A DNA stretch of 64,000 nucleotides, taken from assembly GCF_021917145.1 (NCBI RefSeq), contig NC_061063.1:6453944-6517943 (forward strand). Reading direction: 5' to 3'. Below are positions 4,707 through 50,684 of this stretch, in pieces; the first letter of the stretch is position 1; the number at the start of each line of letters is the position of its first letter. This DNA comes from Hypomesus transpacificus. Lineage: Eukaryota; Chordata; Actinopteri; Osmeriformes; Osmeridae. The translations under genes and the position numbers were made by a program. A model generated the notes under the pieces. It was given only the letters and a program-made list of their open reading frames with translations. It was not told where the DNA came from and ran no database searches.

Positions 4707-5219
4707 CAGAAAAACTGTACTTTCTAATGATGATTCTCAAGGAATGGAAAAATATGCGAATTTCTGCCTCCTTGTGGCGCCCACACTGATACCTTCATTA
4801 CAATCGCGGTACAAAACAATGACCATAACAAAGACTCACTTATACGTACATTTAAAGATGAATCTCACATTATTGTATTTCACACTCCAATGAGACACAG
4901 CATCAAATATTTAAATCAAAGTGCATACTGATACTGTAGGATCACATCATGTTATTGTGGGCACTTTATAAAAAGGATTTTGAATTTTTTGATAATAAAA
5001 AAAGTAAGTTGTGTAAATGGCACATGAGCTTCTTGTTTTCCCCATATAAAAATACAGGCGTTAGATAAGGCTTGCTTGAAGATTTCCAGCAGATGATGTC
5101 ACCCTGACACATTCTCAGCTCAGACAAAGCTCAGAGATATCAGCTGGTAGTGAATGACCCATTAGGCCTACATCCACAGAGATCTTTTGGGAAAGTTACG
5201 CATAGTTCAGCCTACAAGG

Positions 5220-8200
5220 TCATGTTGAGACAAGTCGGCCTGAGTCCGCCTCAACGATGGCCTTCTCTTCCTCGGGCAGAGCCCACTTCTGGATCTTTCC
5301 ACTTCCAAACAAGGTGAAGATGAGCGCCCCGATGGCACTGATGCCGGCGGCTACGCAGAACACACTCCTCCAGCCCGCCACAGTGTGCTGGGAGGAGAGA
5401 CCAGGAGTAGGAGGCACGGAGGGGAGGGGGGCAAATGACACATCGTTTTATGGGATTTACATCTCCAATTATTTTTGACAATTTACTAATCTTAAAGATG
5501 AATTAATAAGTGTGATGTTAAGCTTACATCTTTGGTAAGGTAACCCACTGCAATAGGTGCCACAACCCCTGGGATGGTCCCGAAAGTGTTGGTGATTCCC
5601 AGGAGCACTCCTGCGTACCTGTAGGAAGGTGTAGACATTCAGAGAGCTGATTGATGTCAGCATGTGTTTGTGTAGGTTTATGTGAGAGTGAGTGAACATT
5701 TGTAATTCAGTGATAGATAAAGGAAACAATAACACAACAGGGATTAAAAATGAAAAAATACAAAACTTTTGGGACTAAGAAAATAACTAGAGATGGAGAT
5801 TCAGATGGAGATGCGTCCAGAGACACCCACCGTGGGGCGATGTCTATCTGGTTGATGAAAACCCCTGCAGCACTTGTTCCCCCAATAGTGGTAGAGAGGG
5901 TGAGAAAGGTCACAGCTAGTGTTCCACTGCACCCTGAGAAGCCCAATGCCACCAGGAACCCTGCTGGTAACAGCAGACCTGGAGTGACAATTAAAAGGAG
6001 AGAAAGAGAGAGAGATGGAGGGTGAGAGACAAAAGACGAAGGGAGAATAGTTGAACTTCAGTGCTATATATTAAAACACTGTCCCAACCACAGATAAAAA
6101 TGTATTATTTATGGATCCCAAAACAACACAGAGGGATAAATTGATATGCAAAAGGAGGATGCAAGATAACAGCACACTATTTCAGTTTTACAGTCTGGGT
6201 GAGACCTAGACTTATACAGCCCATTGGTTTTTGTAATACTGCTTTTGTAACCACGGTCATACCCTTTCACAATAAAGGTCTCCTTGCCTGTAATGGTGAA
6301 GATCTTGCGAACGGCAGTGGTACTCAATAGCTCCTTCTCCAGGAGACTGTCTGCTACTACGCCTGAGAGCAGAGAGAAGAGCCAAGCACCCAGGTATGGC
6401 AGGGCAGACAGAAAGGAATTCTGTGTTGATAAGAAAGGGAGATATTGAGTGAGATTGAGAGAGAGATGGTTATTTTTGATTATTTGTGGAAGTTTGACAG
6501 GCTTGATTTTTTTGGTAATCTTTTTGTGTAATTATTGGCGCATTAATACTTGAATATGTATACGGGAATGGACAAGTGGAAACTTAATTGAAGAAAGAAA
6601 AAATGTTATGGTACACTCTCAGTCTCTCTCCTTGTCTATCTCCATCTCTGGTCTCCTGTGCATGTGTCACCTGTCGGAGGTCAAAGTGCAGTACGGTGTC
6701 CATGTAGGTGGGAAGGGAGGTCAGCAGGGTGTAGTACGACCAGTTGGCACACATCTGGGACAGAATGATGGCCCAGAGGGGTCCAGACAGCAGCAGAGAC
6801 AGCAGAGGTACAGACCAGCCATGCGCACCTCCCTGGGGATCGCAAAGAGAGGCAAATAGAGAGACAAAAGGATGAAATAAGATGTGGGGGAAAGGGAGGG
6901 GGGGAGGGGGAAAAGGGAAGGAAGGATTGTAAAAGAGTGATGAGTGAAAGAGAGCGTTGTTAAATACACAAATTGCCAAACCTAAGTTGTGAGCATCAAA
7001 TAATGTTTTGTTTGCTACCTGGGGGCCTATAGTGTTGATTATGTAATCCTGTTCCTGTTTGCTGATTCGTGGATGAGTATGAGGGTTGTCTGATACCAGG
7101 ATGAACCAGGCAACTGCCCAGAGACAACCTGCTCCTCCTGAACCACAGAAAGAGAGGAGAACATAAAGAGTGTGTGAGGCTTTGTATATTAGAGATTAGA
7201 GATCAGTGCCTCTATTAAACCAGGTTAATGCCTCTCTCACCACATATGTAGAATACAGCAGGCCAACCCAGGCTGTGGCAGATAAAGCCTGTTAGGGGCA
7301 ATGCAACAAAGGCCCCAAAGTTAGCCCCTGCCCCCGACAGGGTTATCAGGCGCGACCTCTCCAATGGCGGTGCCCAACAAGCCCACATAGCCATCATGGC
7401 TGGGAATGTTACACCCTGCAGAAGGAACACACACAGTTTAGAACTTAACTGCGTGAACAGTTTAGGAAAACCCTAAAGCCAACATTTCAATACAATTGCA
7501 GTTCTTGTTTTTTAGTTTATTGTAGGCCCACAACACATGATGACATGATGGATTTTTACCTCTCCAAAGCCTTCCAGAGCCCGAAGGGCAAACAGCCAGG
7601 AGGCCCCCATCTGGGCGGCCTGGGGGGTGAGGAGGGTGAGGGCGGCAGTGCCCAGCACCCCTCCTCCCAGAAACTTGCTGCCGCCGTAGTGGCCCGCCAG
7701 GTAGCCCCCGGGGATCTGGGTGAACAGGTAGCCGAAGAAGAAGGCTCCCAGCAGCCACCCCTGAGTCCCTGAGTCCCAGGAGTACTGGGGAATCTGGGGG
7801 AGGGAGGGAGGAGGAGAAACAGAGAGGGGGATTAAGCGAGGATGGAGGAGGGTAAGAAAGGTTTAGACATGGAGGAGAGGGCATGGAAGATTGAAAAGAG
7901 AAGATTGGAGTGAGTGATGGATAGGGAAATAAGGAGGATTTGGGAGTGGGGAGGGATAGAAAGATGTTGTGAGGGTGTGAAGTGTGTGTGTGATGAAAGA
8001 GAAAAACAAAGGTGAGAAAAAAATGAAATGAAAGAAAATGAATGGTCACTATGTTTCATGTCTAAGTTGTCTGTCACTATCTCCATGCACCGAATCCAAA
8101 TCTAATTATGGATATGAAGTGTTGGTTTAAATACACATTTGTGTGGTTGACTCCATTTTTGTTTCCTCACCCCATCTGGTTGGTCTGGACTAGGACTACT

Positions 8201-8781
8201 GTTGGAGAAGCTGTGGGAAGGCACCGGACACTCGTGTCTTGCCGTGCCGTTGAGTGTCGGCTGGCTGCGGGTTTCGTTCACCATGGCTACCATGGCAACA
8301 CTGAGGTTGACGCGGAGACCATAGACGACGGAGAAGCCGAAGAACATCATGACGGCGAGGTTGAGGCGGGTGGAGCAGCATTGAGGATGTACTGTGGTTC
8401 CACAAGATGACAGCAGACATTGACAGTACACTGTCTCAGACACACACAGCACAACTACACACTATCGCACACAGCAGCATGCTTCTGCAGGGTCTACAAA
8501 CACATACTGTAAACTTGCACTTGACTCGAAACCTCATAAAGTCATGTGTGGTTATTCCTACACCATAATAACTGCATATCTACTTGTAGCTACTGTCTAA
8601 CTAGCCATGACAATTTACTTTGATCACTTTTAGAACTACCCAAGTCAGCAACAGTGTATCAGTAGAAGAGGGACAGACCAGATTCCACCCCCTCAACCGC
8701 TTCATCTTCCAGGAGGGGTTCGGTATCTCCACTCTCGTCCGAAAGGGCAGTATTGATTGAGTATCCATTTTGAAGAGCCAT
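5220..8781 (-). CDS. slc17a5: Sialin-like lysosomal anion/sialic acid transporter (SLC17 family)
   Basis: Ten exons: 8781-8679, 8391-8171, 7793-7560, 7415-7241, 7137-7019, 6832-6671, 6420-6288, 5978-5831, 5618-5528, 5387-5220. The join is 1554 nt, 517 aa plus stop. The family carries sialic acid and other organic anions with protons out of lysosomes, through 12 membrane helices. The N-terminus has a DTEPLL motif (residues 19-24), a DxxxLL lysosomal sorting signal placed as in human sialin. [10 protein letters not shown] keeps the arginine equivalent to human R39, and NETR and NGT in the first lumenal loop are glycosylation sites. [22 protein letters not shown] and NQIDIAPR are family signatures. 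Oddities: the histidine of the human FPAMHAMW segment is methionine here (residue 194), and intron 7 has a GC donor. It is head to head with ppt1. It could be a paralog of slc17a5 rather than the true ortholog. Confidence 0.93.
6286..6287 (-). other. GC-AG splice donor of slc17a5-like intron 7
   Basis: Exon 7 must end in ATTACAG to keep frame with exon 8, which begins GTCTGCTG. The intron therefore starts GCAAGG rather than GTAAGG, while its 3' end is a normal CAG. All other introns of the gene use GT. ACAG|GCAAGG has the strong flanking consensus usual for the minor GC-AG class. Confidence 0.85.
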
Positions 8782-9632
8782 AGAATCCAGTCAGCTGACA
8801 GAACAAGAAAATTAGGTTTAGCCTAGAACCATGTCATGGAACCATAATGTCCTGGAGGAACATAAGCACACACACACACACTGAGAGATAAGGTGAATTA
8901 CAAAACAAGTATGTGGTAGGGATAAACTGGATTGGGTCTGCCACACAGCTACATTCATTATTTTAAAACGTCATACTATATCATTTTAGTTGTATATATA
9001 TATTTTGTTATCTAATGTGTAAACTCACAATTACTAGATTTGTCTGCCTCTCCCTCCCCCACTTGAAATCCTGTATAAGTGGGAAGTCGTTTCTTTGAGG
9101 CATATGGTGTGACTGAAAGCAGATGTGAGCATCACCAAACTGATGACCGTTGTCACACGCACTCTTAAAGACTGGCTACCCTGAGTCGGCAACATCTGAT
9201 AATAGAGATTGATTAAAGCGAAATTGATGAGTAAAGTAATTTCTTCAAACCAGTAGGCCTACTTCTTTTCAGGTATTGCTTTCCACGAAGTTAACCTCTG
9301 ATACTGTGAATCCACGGACATGTGTATTGATATTCATAATTAACATGGGCTATAGAGCACAGTAGGATATATAATGTAGTCTATAATTGTAACAACCCAC
9401 GGACAACGCAATACATTTATAACAAATGAAAAATAATCATATGTTGCTCAAATAGTGAATACATCATGTATTACATACCTAAAACAGTCCGGATCAAAAG
9501 TGTTTCTTCTACTTGTGTAAACACATAACCCTTCTGATGACTGGCATGGCAAAAGCAGAACTGAGAGGTTTTGTGTTGAAACCATGAAACTATTGTGTTT
9601 ACAATGTCCTTTTCCCCAAAAAAGAGACCACA

Positions 9633-9642
9633 GTCACGTGAT
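9633..9642 (+). promoter_or_regulatory. CLEAR-like E-box
   Basis: GTCACGTGAT matches nine of ten positions of the CLEAR element GTCACGTGAC, which TFEB and its relatives bind in promoters of lysosomal genes. It sits midway between two lysosomal genes. A second, M-box-like TCATGTGA follows 122 bases downstream. Confidence 0.55.
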
Positions 9643-9763
9643 TTTAAATGCCTAAGTCGACAACAGAAAGATCGATACACCGCGTTGGTATAACACACAA
9701 TAGGGTGTTCCGCATAGTTTAGAACTCAGTGTACACCGATCTTCCGCGTTGGGTTGAGCATGA

Positions 9764-9771
9764 TCATGTGA
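9764..9771 (+). promoter_or_regulatory. M-box-like MiT/TFE site
   Basis: TCATGTGA is a preferred octamer of MITF/TFE factors. It lies 439 bases upstream of the ppt1 start codon and on the ppt1 side of the CLEAR-like site. Confidence 0.4.
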
Positions 9772-10210
9772 TAAACTAGCTCAACTGCTATTCTCTGTTT
9801 CAATTTTAAGTGGCTTGCTTCAGAAAGGGTACGTGTTAACAATTACTTATTTTAGCAACGTGTTTCAGTGTATGAAAAAAGTGCAAGTGTTTTCTAGCGA
9901 TCTAGTGTTTTCGTGCTATCCCCTCCAACGTCCAATATGATAATTCTGTTTTCTATACCGATTTCTCAGGCTAGTCATTTTGGTTGTAGACAGTTTAGCC
10001 AGACCAAGTTACTGTACAGTACCATCAAAGAGTCGTTGAGCAGTTCTTTGCGAGAGTAGAAGTCTATCCTGTTTTTGTCGTTTATTGTACCTAATTGCTT
10101 TACAAGTTTTTGCATGTCAAGAACGTAGCCTGTCCCCAAATCATCTTTGAGAACCACCAGCCGTAACTTCATCCATATCTTTTGTTGGTCTCATCAGATT
10201 AGTGCCCACC

Positions 10211-12703
<2,493 letters not shown>

Positions 12704-13138
12704 TCAGCCTGCAGCATACCCATAACACAGCCCCTAAAATTACACTTTTCAGTGGGCTAGTAGGATAGTTCAGCGATGTTACAAAGCAATTGTACTAGTA
12801 ATGGAACTCAGATCAGTTGAGTTTGCAACATTCCAGTATGGAAGGGCCCTGTGCAATCCTGACTCACCCTCAGCCTGTCTTCTGGGGTACCTTCGCTTGA
12901 TGTTGACAAAGTTATAGGCCTACTGCTGTTCTAATGCACTGATGCTTCCTGTCATGGCCATATTTGACTCCTGGTATGTAACATATGACCTTTAATGACT
13001 TTAGAACCTTGTATGACCTGAGTCAAAACAACAATATTAAACAGGTATATTTTACTTTCTTTTATTTTGAGTTGACAGCTATATGAAGCAATGTTAACTA
13101 TGCAAGATGGTTAGTTGTGTGCTGTATTTTTGAATAAA
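12704..13138 (+). other. ppt1 3' untranslated region and poly(A) signal
   Basis: AATAAA at 13133-13138 is the first canonical signal after the stop codon, giving a 3' UTR of about 450 bases. A second AATAAA lies near 13190. The cap1 transcript ends only about 140 bases further on from the opposite strand. Confidence 0.65.
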
Positions 13139-13275
13139 ATGAATTACAAAAAATGTGAATCCTTTCCCTTTGCAATCAGTCCTGGAAATTAATAAATGTT
13201 GACTAATATTTTAACATGGACCCATGAATGTTTATCCTTTGATTAACCATTAAAGTCACAACCACAAACAAAGAA

Positions 13276-14556
13276 TTTATTAGAATTTATTTTATTGCAA
13301 CTGTTTTTCCAATGATTACTCCTCTGGTACTAATGTACAGAATTTTGTATTCTGGACCAAGAGGTAAAAGAAAATCAAAAAAGACGATACAAAAACTGTA
13401 CCTTAGAGCTGGGCGGCTCAGGACAGGGTAAACCACAGAACAGGGAGTGAGAGGAGGAGGATGGAATGATGGTGGTAAAGCTACAACCACTCAGTAAGCA
13501 CAATTTATACAGATCGCTACAGCAGGTGCTTCAACTAGGGAACAGTGAGTGGCAACAAAGTGATCAATGATTCAGCATGTTCCATCTTCTCTCTGTGCTT
13601 TCAATTCCAGTTTGTGCCATAAATAGGAGCCACACTGCAAAAATCTCTTCCCCTTTTCATGATCCCTTTCTCTCAACTCATTCTTTTATCGCTCTTCTCA
13701 GAATGGAATGTTCATTTTAAATGATTCAAGGACTGTGCCATGTGGGTTTGAGTCAACATACATTCAATGATTAATTTATGACTTTTTTCAATTATGTAAA
13801 TGTCCAATATCACTAACCTTCAGTGTTATGATGAAAAAGTTACCCTTTTAAGTTCTAGTCTCTAAGTTGTCTCTACTATGAGAGTGTAGATGACACACGT
13901 TATATTTATCTCATGAATGTTTAGAACATCAAACACTGGAAATGATATTGTATGGTGGTATGTCGATACCACAGTTCTACTGACTTGCTTCATGGTTGGA
14001 TTGCATAAATGAAACCGAAATTGGTAGAACTCCTTTGAAACACCTGCTGACCAGAGAAATTATTAAGACTTATGATTTGTTAAAATAACTAGATAGCATG
14101 ACCTGATTGGTTAGGAGAGGGACAGGACCATTGATGAGTTGTGATAAAGGCTCGTCCCATTTTGGCTAATCTATATGGTCAATTTAGACATTATAAATGT
14201 ACTTCAGGTATGTACAAATCAATAACAAAGAACATCCCCATTGCTTGTTGGCAAACATGAGAACACGCTTGCTGGAACACTTAGGGGCCAATTGGAATGA
14301 CAAGCTCCTCCCTGCTATTGGCTGAAAGAACGTTCCAGATAAAGCAAGTAGTCCTCCCATTGGCTTTAGGAAGACACAGCTAAAGCTGTGATTGGCTGAC
14401 AAAGGGGCAAAAACAAAAAAAACAAAGTGAGGTTGGCATCTCGGTCTACCGTGTGGTTTAGCTCGTTGGTTGGTGGATCAGTCAGGTAGGCATTTGAATA
14501 GGGGGGGTGGAGGGGGAGTGAGAGGAGGAGAAGGTGGGTGGGGGTGTGCAGACCCT
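13276..14556 (-). other. cap1 3' untranslated region
   Basis: On the minus strand, AATAAA signals lie at 13281-13276 and in the neighbouring AT-rich bases up to about 13294. From the stop codon at 14557 this makes a 3' UTR of about 1.27 kb. No ORF of note is present. Confidence 0.6.
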
Positions 14557-17500
14557 CTATCCAGCAATCTCTGTTGCCGTGGTGACCAGCTTCTTGCCAT
14601 CCCAGATAGTCTTAAACTGCTCAGGAACTGGCATCTCAGTCTAGGAGGAAAAAAACTTATTCATTCATCCTTACAAACAAAAAAACACACACAATATTGC
14701 TATCATGTAGTCATACAGATATTAGGGGTGTAACAATATATCGCAATACAACATTTTAACAATATGTATCGTAGAGTTATGGCAATATTTTACAATATGA
14801 CGTCCGTTTGATCCTATTGGTTGAGTTACCAGCACGCAACCTACTCTGCACCTATTGTACACCCAATATCGTAATACGTATCGAATCGTGAGCTGAATGT
14901 ACACCCCTAACAGATATGTATTATTATTTAGTACTACAGTGCCCTCCAAAAGTATTGGAACAGTGAGGCAAATTCCTTTATTTTTGCTGTAGACTGAAAA
15001 CATTTGGGCTTGACATCAAATAATGAACGTGAGACCAGAGATCAACGTTTCAGCTTTTATTTCCAGGTATTTACATCAGGATCTGATGCACAACTAAGAA
15101 AATATCACATTTTGTTTGAATCCACCCATTTGTCATGTGAGCAAAAGTATTGGAACAGATATACTTAAAACATATTTAAGTGAATAAGACTTAATATTTA
15201 GTTGCAAATCCTTTGCTTTCAATAACTGCAGCAAGTCTGTGACCCATTGACGTCACCAAACTTTTACATTCTTCCTTTTTGATGCTTTCCCAGGCTTTCA
15301 CTGCAGCCTCTTTCAGTTGTTGTTTGTTTTGTGGGGTTCCTCCCTTCAGTCTCCTCTTAAGCAGGTAAAATGCATGCTCTATAGGGTTTAAGTCTGGAGA
15401 TTGACTTGGCCAGTCTAATACCTTCCATTTCTTGCCCCTGATGAACTCCTTTGTTGTTTTGGCAGTGTGTTTTGGGTCGTTATCTTGCTGCATGATGAAG
15501 GCTCTGCCAATCAGTTTGGTTGCATCTTTCCTTAAATTGGCAGACAAAATGTTTCTGTAGACTTCCGAGGTCATTTTGCTGCTGCCATCATGTGTTACAT
15601 CCTCAATGAAGATTAATGAGCCCGTCCCAGAAGAAGCCATGCAAGTCCAAGCCATGACATTACCTCCACCGTGTTTCACAGATGAGCTTGTGTGTTTGGG
15701 ATCATGAGCAGTTCCTTTCTTTCTCCAAACTTTAGCCTTTCCATCACTTTGGTAAAAGTTAATCTTTGTCTCATCAGTCCATAAAACTTTGTCCCAGAAT
15801 TTTTGAGGTTCATCTCTGTACTTTTTGGCAATTTCCAGCCTGGCCTTCCTATTCTTCTTGCTAATGAGTGGTTTGCATCTTCTGGTGTAGCCCTTGTACT
15901 TTTGTTCATGAAGTCTTCTGCGAACAGTAGATAGTGATACCTTCACTCCTGCCATCTGGAGGTTGTTGCTGATCTCACTAACAGTTGTTTTAGGGTCTTT
16001 CTTTACAGCTCTCACAATGTTTCTGTCATCAACTGCTGATGTTTTCCTTGGTCTACCTGTTCGACGTCTGTTACTTAGTACACCAGTAGTTTTCTTCTTT
16101 CTTCAGGACATTCCAAATGGTTGTACTGGCTATGGCCAATGTTTCTGCAATGGCTCTGATTGATTTTCCATCTTCTCTAAGACTCACAATTGCTTGTTTT
16201 TCACCCAAAGACAGCGCTCTGGTTTTCATGTTGTTTTCACCTCTGAATACAGTCTGCATAGACAAAACCTATCTTACCCAATCTGAACCTGAGTGTAGAC
16301 ATTCAGTGGTATTTATTGATTGAATAATGTATGTAATAGGACACACCTGGGCAACAAAACACACCTGTCAGTCACATGTTCCAATACTTTTGCTCACGTG
16401 ACAAATGGGTAGGTTCGAACAAAAAGGTGATATTTTCTAATTTGTGCATCAGATCCTGATGTAAATACCTGGAAATAAAAGCTGAAACGTTGATCTCTAG
16501 TTTCACATTCATCGTTTGATGTCAAGCCCAAATGTTTTCAGTCTACAGCAAAAATAAAGGAATTGGCCTCACTGTTCCAATACTTTTGGAGGGCACTGTA
16601 TGTACAATCGTATTATACATATAGGCAATAGACAGAGTGGACACTACTACTGTAGCTAAGTAAATTCTATTAGCCCCTTTTATCTTGCACTGGTCAGTAT
16701 TAACTACAGATGGTGCTCTTTACTCACAAACTCTCCATCTTTTCCGGGTACCAGAACGTTCATCTCAGAGCTTTTGGCGCTGACGATCTCGCATGCCAGT
16801 GAGTCAGCACTCAGGTAGACGTGGCAACCGTCTGTCTTGTTGATGGAGATAGTGGGCACCTTGCCCAAAACCTGGACGGAAAGGAGATGAAAAGTGATTA
16901 AGAAACATTATATGTTACGCTAAGTAGCCCAATAGATTAATGTCCTGTACATGTATTCAAAATGTAATGGTTCAGTCTGTGTGTCATTGCGCTTTTGACA
17001 CAAAGCTCATGCTGTTGGTAATGATCAACACACACCTGGATCTTGACGTCCCTGCAGTTGATCACCTCCACAATCCCGACGACGTCGTCAAATACCAGAC
17101 CCAGCTTCTTACAGTTGTCTAATACAAGGGAAAATGGGAAGACAAGTTAGGCTAATGATTGTGCTAATATCTGCTAGCCTTCTCTCACCCTTGTACTCAT
17201 TAGGTATTAGATCAGGTTGCTCTGAGGTAAATGTGTATTTGAATCTGATAACTGAAGAACAGCTGTCCTTATCATACCATCTGTGTGGATAATCAAAATT
17301 TTAAAGAATATCAAGTCCTAAAAGGATGTATTTTGGTAAAAAAAAGGGAAGTAAAAAAGAGCCCCAAAGGAAGTGAGACAGGATGCTTGATGCAAGTATT
17401 TGAACAGGACCTTGAGCAGTGGCTGGGGAACAGAAGACCGACCCGTACCGATAATGATGGAGTTGATCTTGCCCTTGACCTGCAGGGTGCTCTGGTTGCA

Positions 17501-43287: not shown

Positions 43288-46200
43288 ATGCTAGTCCACA
43301 CTTATTCGGCTATGGTGAGTGTCGAAACATCCGTTTACTATGCAATATCTTGCTAAGTTTAGCTCTCGTAAAGTCTTGTCATATTAGATTTAACTTTCTC
43401 TTGAGTAGAGCGCACAGATATGTGACGTTGAGTTCGCACTCGCGGCGCTCGCAGTCACAATCAGCTGTCCAGTGAGATCGCCTGGGTATGCGGAATGTCA
43501 GACAGAGGGAAATCCAAAGGCATCAAAGTGTCCACTGCAGCCTAATGGTGATTCAAGAGGGCCAGCTAAAACACTCTGACACTCTGAGATGACAAACCAT
43601 AATTATTTAGAAGATGCCCGTTTGCGTTATAAATGTTGAGGATAATCAAAAACGAAAACTGTTAGAAATAAATAAAGGCATATGTTCAGTTTATTTTGGT
43701 GGCTAATTAGTGTATTATTCATTTGTAGCCCATATATATTATTATCATTTGTATTACTGTTATTGTTAGTAATCATTAAAAAATATATATATAACAAAGC
43801 GATGGTTGCTTCTAAATGGGCCCCTCATTCGTTGAGAATAAGGGAAAATGTGCAACACAACTAAATTGATCGGTGACCCAGCTTCAGAAAATCGAAATTA
43901 AATAGACAGTGAGAATGCAGGCTGGATCATTTGGAGATACTGGGAAAAACAAATCCTAGATGGCGAAGTATTTTTGCAAAAAGTTAATTGTAAAAAGAAA
44001 CTCTCAAATTCAATCTGCTTTGGAAAAGTTTATTCACAATCTATTGGGCTATTGTAAATGAACACTTTTGGGATAGATAGGCTAATTTACTACTAGCCCT
44101 CGGGGGACTAGACGTCCCGCATATTTGCTATACCTGTCCTTTGTTCTCATGGGCTCCTGTAGGTCATGACCTTGGTGACACTGCCGCTCGCGATGCCAGG
44201 GGCACCTGCTAGGATGCTGCCAATACGCATGAGATTACGCCTTTAGATTCCCTGATTCACACAGTCATAGAAATCTTTCATTTTTTAATACTTTAGCTGA
44301 ATATGCTACTTTTTTGTTGTTTTTTGTTATCGACTAAATATACCTATATCGGCTATTTTACGATAGGCCTACTAGGCTATACTTTAAAATTATAATAAGT
44401 TTGAAATATTTCCTCACTGTACAGTGGTTATTTGGAGTCTGAGATCAGCAGTTCAACAAATCACGTGAACATTTGAATTGTTTTAGGCATTTATGGTACA
44501 GTTTGCCTAACCCAACTTTTTGTCGAATACGCAGGACCGCTCAGACGGACTGACCGGCTCCTCGCCGAGTGGCCGTCTATCGCAACTCTCCTCGCTGAAT
44601 CAGGCCGCATACTCCACGGCACCACCGCTCTGTCACACGCCGGCCTCCGACTTCCAGCCCCCTTACTTTCCTCCTCCATATCCCCAGTCTTCACTCTCAT
44701 ACTCCCAGAGTCAGGACTCATATTCCCACTTATCGGACCCCTACCCTTCCATCAATTCCATCCATCAACACCAGCAAGCGGCATGGCACTCACAGCGGTC
44801 ACGGTCAGATGAGGGGGGGCTCTTGTCACAGTCACACCGGGCTCTGAGCCTCGACCCTCGACGGGAATACCCCGGTGTCCCCCGTCTTCTCCACGGATTG
44901 GGGGAGGGTGCTGCCGCACTAGGAGACGGTCCTCTCGGAATGCACATCGGACATCATGGTTTGGAAGACATTCAGGTGGGTTTTTTTCGTTTCCAGCTCG
45001 CTCTGAGATTGTCTGTAAAAGTCCTGTCCGTAAGAATCTTAACCAACACCTCCTTAAAGTAGGTTTCAGGGTAATGTTAAATATGAATATCATTCGATAA
45101 CAATTTTTGTCTAGTCTAATATTAAGATACCACAAAGGTCAGAGCCCAACATGTTCTCTTGGGGAGCATTTTAAACATGATTGTACACAATTACTCTTCT
45201 CCATTAAATGTCACCCAGCAATTTTCTAAATTAAAAGGCCTAAATAAATAAATAGGCTACTAAAACATAAAAAGGGACAACAATTATTATCTAAAATGGA
45301 TAGGCCTACTTCGATCGAATTTTCCACGGTTTTATGCATCTTTCCCCAGTGGCACTTCAAAACGGTCAAAGTGGCAATTATTGCCTTGATGGATATACAG
45401 GCTTAATCATGTTAAACATAATTTCTGCTCCAAAATGACAAGGGCTTGAATGTCTTGTTAGTTTATAAATTAGTTTAGCATTCTTCTGCAGTGCGATAAT
45501 CCTCGATGTGATAGCCTACTTTACAGGAAGCTGCGGATTAATTTAGCTATCATATTTTCTGTCTTTTTTGTGAACACAAATCCTTATACGCAGGGCACAA
45601 ACGAATGGATAAAAATGCGTAGTTTAGGCTATACGAAGTGAATAGCCTACCTAAAATTAAAGATTCTCCGATTACAATTTTGAGATAGCTTTAAAGTTTA
45701 AGATAATGGCTACATGTAGCCTGTTGCAACAGTTAAATAGAATCAGAAGATCACATTAAGCCGTAGCCTACCCATTTTATTTCTCCGACTAGGATATTTT
45801 ATTTTATTTATATATTATTTCATAAAAATTTTGGCTGAAACAACTGCCAGCATTTTCATTTAAGAAGAAGGCTCAACCAAGGCGTATCCACGTTTGTATT
45901 GTAAAATTAGAACATTGTGCCATGTTAAGGTATTCTTTGCCTTGTAATTTAGAGAAAATAATTGTTGCTATGGAATATTGAGTAGTCAACCACGCGCAAG
46001 CAGGTGCAGAAGCAGACGTGTTTGTTCAAAGCATCCTGCCTCCCTCAGAAAATCGAGGCGCAACCAATTGATTTCCGTGGTCATTAATACAAAAGAAACA
46101 CTTACTCAAGCTGCAGCCAAGGAGTCATCGCGGCATGTTGGTGTTAAATGCTGGCTCTTGACAGAACGTTTATTTGATAAATGGATTAAATTCTATACGT

Positions 46201-48120: not shown

Positions 48121-50684
48121 AATAGGGAAGGAGTTCATTCAATCCTCTCAATTCAGATGAAAATTCCAGCCCACACATCATTGGCAGCAGTCAGTGTATG
48201 ATTAGTGGGCAACACCAGCTAATCTCATGAAAACAAATTAACGGTTTTAAAAGATGATGTAACAAAGATGCTCAAGCACAAATTAAAAAAGCCAGAGAGA
48301 CTCTGTTTTCCATGTCAATGCAAATCATTATTAGGAACTGACTGGCAGTTTAATTCTTAATCATTTTCGAAAGGATTGCTTTCCCTGAACGCAAAGCCAT
48401 TTACCAAGTGAAGGTAAAACCATACAGATTTATGGATGTCATGTGCTTTGTTTCTACGATACGATGTTTCACACAATCCAAAGCAAAGCTTAAGGACAAG
48501 AACTCTGACTGTCTATATCTGAATCGTAGTCTTGATATTTAATTAAAAGGGGGGAGGGGGTTGAGGGGGTAGTGACTATGAACAAATCGAGGTGAGAAGA
48601 TCGTCTATACAAGAGATCTGTTACTTAAACCCACTCATCACCTGCTGTTCTAAAATCAACAACAACAATGTGCTAGGATTGTAACAGTGTGAGACCAAAC
48701 ACATTTTGTCACTGAATGTTTTACTTGTGTAACTTAACAACCCTCACGGTTTCAGGGACCGTGTTAGAGCGCCATTAATGGTCTGAACATTCTTGATCAC
48801 ATTCTTCAACTTCTCGTCATCCATCTCACATTTCTGTTCCTCTCCCCCCGCCCTCCCTCTGTCCTTAGTCCCCATGCCGTCCAAGCTGAACGGCTCGTCC
48901 CTGTCAGCGTTGTCCCTCAGTAAGGAGGGTCTGGGGATGGGCTCCGTGTCCAACCCAGGGGAAGTGTTCTGCTCCGTGCCCGGGCGTCTCTCCCTGCTCA
49001 GCTCCACCTCCAAATACAAGGTGACGGTGGGGGAGGTGCAGCGGCGGCTGGCCCCGCCCGAGTGCCTCAACGCCTCCCTGCTGGGCGGAGTCCTGCGCAG
49101 GTAACCGGGGGTGAGGGGTGTTGGTGAGGGGTGAAGCTTTAAAGCCTAAAACATAGATACTCAAGGATGAATCGAAAGATGTAGGACCGAGTATCTGTAG
49201 TCTGTAGGAATCAGGGATTTCTGTGTTTAATGTTTTCTATTTTCTGGATTGCTGTGATTGTGCTTATTTGAATTACAATCAGTAGATGAGCTATTGCCTT
49301 ATTATCTGCTCATGTATCCTGTCTTATTATCCATGTATACCTATGCAGCCCTGCTGTAACCTATATTATGTTATGATAATAGTCACAGGTCCATGATGTA
49401 TTATCTGCCTGATTTATAACAAACACATGTTTATTATATTAGTGTTTCCCTTTTTACCATAAATGAAGGAACACATATAGACAGAATACATAAACAGATA
49501 ATAGCTGAGCTACTGATTGTGATCAACATAAACACGTAAGAAATCCCTGATTTCTTCTACACAGCCAACCAACCAACCAGACAAGCGGGCAGGCAAGCAG
49601 CCATAGAGGATCAGTGATTTGTAATGGCACCACACAGACAGGTTCTAAGCTGCTCTCTCAACCCCTTCCCCCTCTCTCCTCTCCTCCCTCTCTCTCTCCA
49701 CTTTTCTCCTCCCTCAGGGCAAAGTCAAAGAATGGTGGCCGCTGTCTGAGAGAGCGTTTGGAGAAGATTGGGCTCAATCTGCCCGCCGGGCGACGCAAGG
49801 CAGCCAACGTCACTCTTCTGACGGCCCTAGTAGAGGGTAAGAGGCCTACAGTGACACACGCAGCAAATGAACACGGGGGGGGGGGGGGGAATTATCTTGC
49901 AAGCAACTATAAATCAATCTTTTTTTAAAACACTTCTTTTAGTTTGTTACTTCAGCCAGAAACTTGATTTATCCACCTCTCTGTCCATAGGTGAGGCGGT
50001 TCACCTGGCGCGGGACTTTGGGTACGTGTGTGAGACGGAGTTCCCTGCCAGAGCCACAGCAGAGTATCTGTGTCGGCAGAGTGAACCAGAGCAGCTCCCT
50101 ACTCGACGCAGCATGCTGCTGGCCACCAAGTGAGTGAGATCTCTCTGTCTGGCCCCTTCATTTCTCCTGTCCATCTTCTGTCATACCAACATATAGACTT
50201 CAGAGAACACCATCTCACCTCACATTTGTCCATGATCTGTGATGGAAAAACCTGCAGCCTGCGGCCTTAATACCTCTACAGTGCACCATGCATCCCACTA
50301 CATCCTTCTACATCCTACTACATCCTACATTCAGTTTACACACAGTGAGGATCTGGCTGTATAAAGCTCACCGTATTAGCACACATGCTTCCCTGCTGAC
50401 CTCTCCTCTCCTCTTTCTTCAGGGAGATCTGTAAGGAGTTTGTGGACCTGATGTCCCAGGACCGTTCTCCTCTGGGGGCGGGACGCCCCAACCCCTGCCT
50501 GGAGCCGGGGGTGCAGGGCAGTCTCACCCACTTCAGCCTGCTGACCCATGGCTTCGGCACGCCGGCCATCTGCGCCGCTCTGTCAGCCTTCCAGAGCTAC
50601 CTGGCGGAGGCCGTCAAAATGCTGGACAAAGGAGAGGGAGGAGGGAAGAGCCACCATGACAAGGAGATGAAGCACCGCAAGTAG
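43288..50684 (+). CDS. tfap2e: Transcription factor AP-2 epsilon
   Basis: Seven exons: 43288-43314, 44535-44975, 46875-46929, 48869-49100, 49718-49836, 49991-50129, 50423-50684. The join is 1275 nt, 424 aa plus stop. AP-2 proteins bind GCCN3GGC sites as dimers; AP-2 epsilon acts in olfactory, neural-crest and skin lineages. The 27-base exon 1 codes for MLVHTYSAM, the start seen in human TFAP2E, and so distinguishes it from other AP-2 genes. Exon 2 is the Pro/Gln/Ser-rich transactivation domain with the PY motif QPPYFPPPY (residues 50-58) and [18 protein letters not shown]. Exons 4-7 form the basic helix-span-helix domain: [82 protein letters not shown], ending KHRK. It converges on psmb2. Confidence 0.97.
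44976..46874. other. tfap2e intron 2
   Basis: A 1.9-kb AT-rich intron without supported coding or repeats. The frame at 45978-46277 is not flanked by usable splice sites in a sensible phase. Confidence 0.6.
47896..47950. repeat. (GA)n microsatellite
   Basis: Near-perfect GA dinucleotides in tfap2e intron 3, about 60 bases before a long CA tract. Confidence 0.9.
48010..48118. repeat. (CA)n microsatellite
   Basis: About 54 CA units with two interruptions, in tfap2e intron 3. Long CA tracts of this kind are frequent and variable in fish. Confidence 0.95.

Follow-up and report, generated by a model that had tools for sequence, protein, structure and literature searches.

Does one promoter serve two lysosomal genes in this fish? 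The window, by which we mean the whole 64-kb stretch analysed here (positions 6453944-6517943 of a 437-Mb genome), carries a sialin gene (slc17a5) and ppt1 in divergent orientation. The sialin gene lies on the minus strand with its ATG at 8781 and ppt1 on the plus strand with its ATG at 10211, head to head, and 1,429 bp (8782-10210) separate the two start codons. A preliminary description of this DNA had a sialin-like transporter and ppt1 starting about 1.4 kb apart in opposite directions, which these ATGs bear out. The human counterparts, SLC17A5 and PPT1, cause separate storage diseases and lie apart, on chromosome 6 and chromosome 1. No paper about the slc17a5-ppt1 pair was found in a search of open PMC full texts, judged by title and the start of the abstract. 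From the motifs and splice signals present, it is plausible that the interval is a shared promoter for two lysosome genes, with two sites for lysosomal master regulators.

Identity of the two genes

The coding region of ppt1 (10211..12703, plus strand) comprises nine coding exons joined by GT-AG splicing and gives an open 308-aa protein (Table 1). Compared with solved structures, this product matches palmitoyl-protein thioesterase 1 (E 7.9e-142, 475 bits), PPT2 being a far weaker match (E 1.5e-12, 51 bits), and it contains the whole PF02089 domain (281 bits). Intron 2 holds, at about 10860-11040 of the window, a short interspersed repeat-like stretch, resembling by eye fish tRNA-derived SINEs.

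The coding region of slc17a5 (8781..5220, minus strand) is made of ten coding exons and encodes an open 517-aa protein. Its splicing is of the GT-AG type with one GC-AG intron, at 5979-6287, where a GC donor (GCAAGG) stands in place of GT. On splice-site scores, which are built throughout on consensus frequencies, the weakest junction is that between coding exons 1 and 2 (donor 3.8, acceptor -1.5). The product has an MFS_1 domain match, and its best match among solved structures is sialin (E 5.5e-158, 530 bits), VGLUT2 being weaker (333 bits); the ten hits of this comparison include no SLC17A1-4 chain. With both frames open and with sialin and PPT1 as best solved-structure matches, the earlier view of two lysosomal genes placed head to head holds.

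The sialin assignment has nevertheless to be weighed against another one, namely that the transporter is a fish relative of the SLC17A1-4 group, in which case the premise of a lysosomal pair fails. Only 254 of 476 aligned residues (53%) agree with the sialin chain, and human K136 and H183 are replaced by S147 and M194. Against this stand the wide distance in score from VGLUTs, the retention of human R39, R57, R168, E171 and E175, and an N-terminal acidic dileucine, DTEPLL, which is aligned with human DRTPLL, the support for the exon 1-2 join being weak. The acidic dileucine is the lysosomal sorting motif in sialin. Among R57, R168, E171, E175 and H183, functional residues of human sialin (H183 also a disease position), four of the five are kept. 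Given the change of H183 to M, substrate handling of the fish sialin may differ from that of the human protein.

The NPT-type model TIGR00894 also matches the product, below its cut-off (460.7 vs 626.45), and teleosts have a Slc17a1/2/3/4-type gene according to the accessible part of PMC2824716; these two facts leave some doubt about slc17a5 from sequence alone. Genomic position speaks for sialin. Adjacency of eef1a1a and slc17a5 is conserved in teleosts and tetrapods (PMC5339811, whose text, as far as accessible, mentions neither ppt1 nor cap1), and since an eef1a gene is the neighbour here as well, position supports the slc17a5 identity. For the same reason we rejected the label of a merely "sialin-like" transporter of undefined type. 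That the gene is an SLC17A1-4 relative, a reading which overlaps with the others considered below, seems to us very improbable, and we refer to it as slc17a5.

Probable noncoding first exons and a candidate promoter core

On each strand of the interval, the highest-scoring splice acceptor is found immediately in front of the coding sequence (Table 1). Our random sample consisted of 20 random 10-kb pieces taken on the five largest contigs, with an overlap of about 3 kb between two of them and including 1,000 N. In this sample, acceptors as strong as the one of slc17a5 occur 0.69 times per kb of strand and those as strong as the one of ppt1 0.56 times, so that an acceptor of this strength should fall less than 30 bases from any particular ATG in about 2% of cases. 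Since the best acceptor precedes the ATG by 13 bases on both strands, each gene probably has a noncoding first exon, and the sequence left between these exons' donors is a core of about 350 bp. These probable first exons are new here.

The donors can be placed less firmly. The one assigned to slc17a5 is the best on its strand; the random sample has 0.67 such donors per kb of strand, which makes its exact place uncertain. The one assigned to ppt1 is second best on the plus strand, after one at 8892, and is weak on its own, as 1.6 equal donors are found per kb of strand at random.

Base composition was considered as well. The CpG observed/expected ratio rises from 0.15-0.31 around the slc17a5 ATG to 1.00 at 9600-9799, with 0.92 at 9700-9899; the value of the window is 0.42. 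Low values at the ATG and high values in the core fit a start of slc17a5 within the core instead of at the ATG. Within the window, the segment 9601-9830 reaches the 94th percentile; the 300 bp flanking the site at 9634 rank no higher than the 82nd percentile among 1,884 random positions, and four of the eight other GTCACGTGAT loci, with ratios of at least 0.90, are richer than these flanks. A peak as modest as this (82nd percentile) was rejected as proof of a promoter by itself. Splice sites and CpG content, taken together, suggest that both genes start in or beside the core of about 350 bp and not 1.4 kb apart. The preliminary description had proposed a shared lysosomal promoter that would be fish-specific and would co-regulate the pair; the predicted donors now bracket both of its factor sites and likely bring the transcription starts, as predicted from them, closer together than the 1.4 kb it had given.

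A simple consensus scan of the core gave no match to TATA, CCAAT, GC box, ETS, NRF1, YY1, CRE or AP-1. Over 9400-10210, the same scan found a TATA-like element at 9415 (minus strand) and a CCAAT at 9932 (plus strand), both outside the core. An Rfam scan of 4900-17500 returned no match at gathering score. The 9-mer CCGCGTTGG occurs twice between the E-boxes described below, each copy within an imperfect 16-nt direct repeat; this could possibly be a further promoter element, or chance.

Table 1. Positions of genes, predicted splice sites and motifs, in window coordinates unless stated otherwise
Feature	Position	Strand	Basis or remark
slc17a5 coding exons 1-5	8781-8679, 8391-8171, 7793-7560, 7415-7241, 7137-7019	-	splicing and open frame
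slc17a5 coding exons 6-10	6832-6671, 6420-6288, 5978-5831, 5618-5528, 5387-5220 (stop)	-	splicing and open frame
ppt1 coding exons 1-5	10211-10340, 10605-10714, 11140-11267, 11578-11648, 11781-11883	+	splicing and open frame
ppt1 coding exons 6-9	12000-12090, 12177-12275, 12394-12465, 12581-12703 (stop)	+	splicing and open frame
Predicted splice acceptor of slc17a5 (first exon base)	8794	-	score 5.4, 13 exon bases before ATG
Predicted donor, last base of slc17a5 noncoding first exon	9479	-	TAG/GTATGT, score 8.2, best on strand
Candidate shared promoter core	9480-9828 (about 350 bp)	.	between the two predicted first-exon donors, both E-boxes inside
CLEAR-like E-box GTCACGTGAT	9633-9642	+	palindromic core TCACGTGA at 9634-9641; 9/10 letters of CLEAR consensus GTCACGTGAC
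9-mer CCGCGTTGG, first copy	9680-9688	+	within imperfect 16-nt direct repeat 9673-9688
9-mer CCGCGTTGG, second copy	9744-9752	+	64 bp further; within imperfect 16-nt direct repeat 9737-9752
M-box-type site TCATGTGA	9764-9771	+	exact match
Predicted donor, last base of ppt1 noncoding first exon	9828	+	AGG/GTACGT, score 6.8
Predicted splice acceptor of ppt1 (first exon base)	10198	+	score 5.8, 13 exon bases before ATG
eef1a tandem pair	about -6400 to -200 (within contig positions 6444000-6453943)	-	

Two E-boxes between the genes

The two MiT/TFE-type sites that had been described between the genes are indeed present as exact GTCACGTGAT and TCATGTGA, their starts being 130 bp apart. The first comes close to the CLEAR consensus GTCACGTGAC, as given in the accessible parts of PMC9363479 and PMC6003119. 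The same two sources list the TCATGTG M-box as a MiT/TFE site, PMC6003119 describing it as specific to MiT/TFE, and the latter names several bHLH-zip families as binders of CACGTG. Because factors such as MYC and MAX also bind CACGTG, the palindrome alone does not tell which factor would use it.

How unusual is this pair of sites? In 20,000 dinucleotide shuffles of the 1,429-bp interval, TCACGTGA appeared in 2.1%, TCATGTGA on either strand in 11% and at least two such sites in 0.72%, and a palindrome with a second site within 140 bp appeared in 0.04%. The random sample contained 13 copies of TCATGTGA and none of TCACGTGA; among its overlapping windows of 1,429 bp, 41 of 3,440 had at least two sites and none of the 3,440 had the paired arrangement. 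Likewise, none of the eight other GTCACGTGAT loci examined (the first eight of the listing, which all come from contig C1) had a second site within 300 bp. The 10-mer GTCACGTGAT itself was rejected as a rare sequence, as it has 735 copies in the 437 Mb, against 669 of the reversed control (an excess of about 10%). If flanking letters are uniform, this count implies roughly one TCACGTGA per 74 kb, or about 0.02 per interval, in agreement with the shuffles. The pair moderately exceeds chance.

These figures bear on the possibility that the promoter is divergent and free of MiT/TFE control, the E-boxes being there by chance or for other bHLH-zip factors and the genes being broadly expressed. The abundance of the 10-mer and the variety of CACGTG binders (PMC6003119, in its accessible part) are compatible with it. 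So is the richness of the whole window in TCAYGTGA, with 12 strand-wise matches where the shuffle mean is 5.2 and only 2 of 100 shuffles reach as high, and so is the fact that motif and interval were picked by the preliminary description after inspection, that is, post hoc. The joint occurrence of both sites in the core is nevertheless uncommon by the above shuffle and sample counts, and both genes are lysosomal, as genes expected to carry such sites are. We judge a promoter free of MiT/TFE control to be improbable.

Part of the TCAYGTGA excess comes from a Tc1-like element at 14935-16600 of the window, which bears such sites in both inverted repeats. Its transposase frame (15194-16102, 303 codons) is open, and the arms of the repeats, 14935-15157 and 16377-16600, are 92-95% complementary. 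They hold TCATGTGA at 15133 and, at the matching place on the minus strand, GTCACGTGAG (core TCACGTGA at 16394-16401), with 9 of 10 CLEAR letters. Going by the sequence of its repeats, this genome has in the element a mobile source of CLEAR-like E-boxes. The third TCACGTGA of the window, at 44461-44468, has a CpG observed/expected ratio of 1.18 around it and stands just before a reading frame at 44511-45059 (plus strand), by eye the start of an AP-2 gene; this piece gave no Pfam match, and the AP-2 domain is found at 48787-49101.

CLEAR sites lie mostly within 200 bp of lysosomal gene starts (PMC6003119, accessible part), and the predicted first exons would put both E-boxes within about 200 bp of a start, as far as starts can be placed from splice signals. 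Since E-boxes are expected near such starts according to that source, their presence confirms a rule and is no surprise.

It could also be argued that two independent ordinary promoters share the 1.4 kb, each having kept a CLEAR-type site of its own from before the junction of the two loci (9634 for slc17a5, 9764 for ppt1). Each gene is lysosomal and an own site is expected for it; the sites differ in type, one a palindrome and the other an M-box, with one nearer to each gene's predicted first exon; and the two gene blocks seem to have separate histories, as described in the next section. Yet the predicted starts are a few hundred bases apart and both sites lie between the predicted donors, so that physical sharing of the region would be hard to avoid. 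Separate promoters thus appear to us rather unlikely, though less so than a promoter free of MiT/TFE control, and we continue with the reading of one promoter shared by slc17a5 and ppt1.

Gene order, proposed mechanism and comparison with known systems

In the 20 kb to the left, eef1a is present in two tandem copies, which lie 3' of slc17a5 and on the same (minus) strand. An eef1a fragment scored 193.6 bits with eEF1A1 and 190.8 bits with eEF1A2, a difference by which 1 and 2 are not separable. Beyond eef1a, within the same 20 kb, follow a cGAS gene (Mab-21 domains) and an rpl11-like gene (ribosomal L5 domains). Between cgas and eef1a there is a 1,057-codon open frame (window coordinates -11503 to -8333), reverse-transcriptase-like and by eye of LINE type. 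Further left, one gene codes for kelch repeats and another for a TFIIS-type helical domain; in our reading of the translations they may be klhl31 and the elongin-A-like eloa, respectively. Neither ddx43 nor kcnq5a was recognised on inspection of the reading frames over 30 kb on this side. On the right, ppt1 is followed by cap1, with which it lies tail to tail, and then by a kiaa0319l-like gene, neurochondrin (ncdn) and an AP-2 gene.

The human counterparts of ppt1, cap1, kiaa0319l, neurochondrin and AP-2 lie on 1p34, with PPT1 and CAP1 tail to tail there too, and those of cgas, eef1a and slc17a5 (CGAS, EEF1A1, SLC17A5) lie on 6q13. With the rpl11-like, elongin-A-like and kelch-repeat genes on the flanks of cgas-eef1a-slc17a5, genes of human 1p type and of chromosome 6 type look interleaved in this region. 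The eef1a-slc17a5 order on one side and the ppt1-cap1 order on the other make the 1.4-kb interval the junction of two blocks. Origin of slc17a5 and ppt1 from separate blocks fits the eef1a1a-slc17a5 adjacency reported in the accessible text of PMC5339811 together with the ppt1-cap1-kiaa0319l-ncdn-AP-2 order seen here; the further step, that the junction is derived and not ancestral, is our inference. This junction is the main interest of the locus.

Data bearing on a place of both genes in the TFEB network come from other animals. When TFEB-modulating flavonoids were given to murine cells, Slc17a5 and Ppt1 were among the lysosomal genes with raised expression in almost all conditions, Ppt1 being only at 1.1-1.2 in 4 of 12 table columns (PMC8834790, accessible part). 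These data fit, indirectly, the membership of both genes in one network and are silent on the fish promoter. Control of lysosomal genes by Tfeb is conserved in zebrafish, according to the accessible part of PMC9363479. Neither PPT1 nor SLC17A5 is named as a proven direct TFEB target in the accessible parts of PMC6335712, PMC9363479, PMC8834790 and PMC6003119.

We consider it somewhat more probable than its negation that a MiT/TFE-responsive bidirectional promoter serves slc17a5 and ppt1 at a rearrangement junction. Both transcripts would start in or beside the core and run outward through a noncoding first exon, followed by a 5' UTR intron (of about 0.7 kb in slc17a5 and about 0.37 kb in ppt1) and then by the coding exon. 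Dimers of Tfeb, Tfe3 or Mitf would bind the palindrome and the M-box and induce both genes under a demand for lysosome biogenesis. The arrangement itself would stem from a chromosomal rearrangement that joined the eef1a-slc17a5 block to the ppt1-cap1 block.

A bolder version may be formulated, which we hold tentatively and would sooner doubt than accept. Through a rearrangement in ray-finned fishes, slc17a5 and ppt1, once under separate control, may have been fused into a single bidirectional unit driven by MiT/TFE. The unit would have been retained for the co-induction of a lysosomal hydrolase and a lysosomal exporter through the same two E-boxes, and damage to this one promoter would then lower both genes. 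If true, this locus would be a natural experiment in which a gene network gained physical co-regulation by rearrangement of two unlinked members. In fish disease models, editing of the promoter or a large deletion at ppt1 might then also hit slc17a5, and expression of ppt1 and slc17a5 might not be independent in species having the same arrangement.

Three known systems invite comparison. With CLEAR-network promoters of TFEB/TFE3/MITF targets, the interval shares a CACGTG palindrome (9/10 CLEAR letters) and TCATGTGA near the predicted starts of lysosomal genes; it differs in that one cluster of sites, recognised here by its motifs, would serve two such genes. Vertebrate bidirectional promoters, a class marked by a CpG-enriched core and by starts separated by under about 1 kb, are resembled in the opposite-strand protein genes, in predicted starts well below 1 kb apart and in the CpG-enriched core. 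The pair departs from this class by the matched organelle function of its products and by its adjacency at a block junction, and its starts are predicted from splice sites and CpG content. Finally, both tetrapod loci find their likeness in the fish, the EEF1A1-SLC17A5 locus in eef1a beside slc17a5 and the PPT1-CAP1 locus in ppt1 lying tail to tail with cap1, the two loci being joined head to head in this fish and apart in human.
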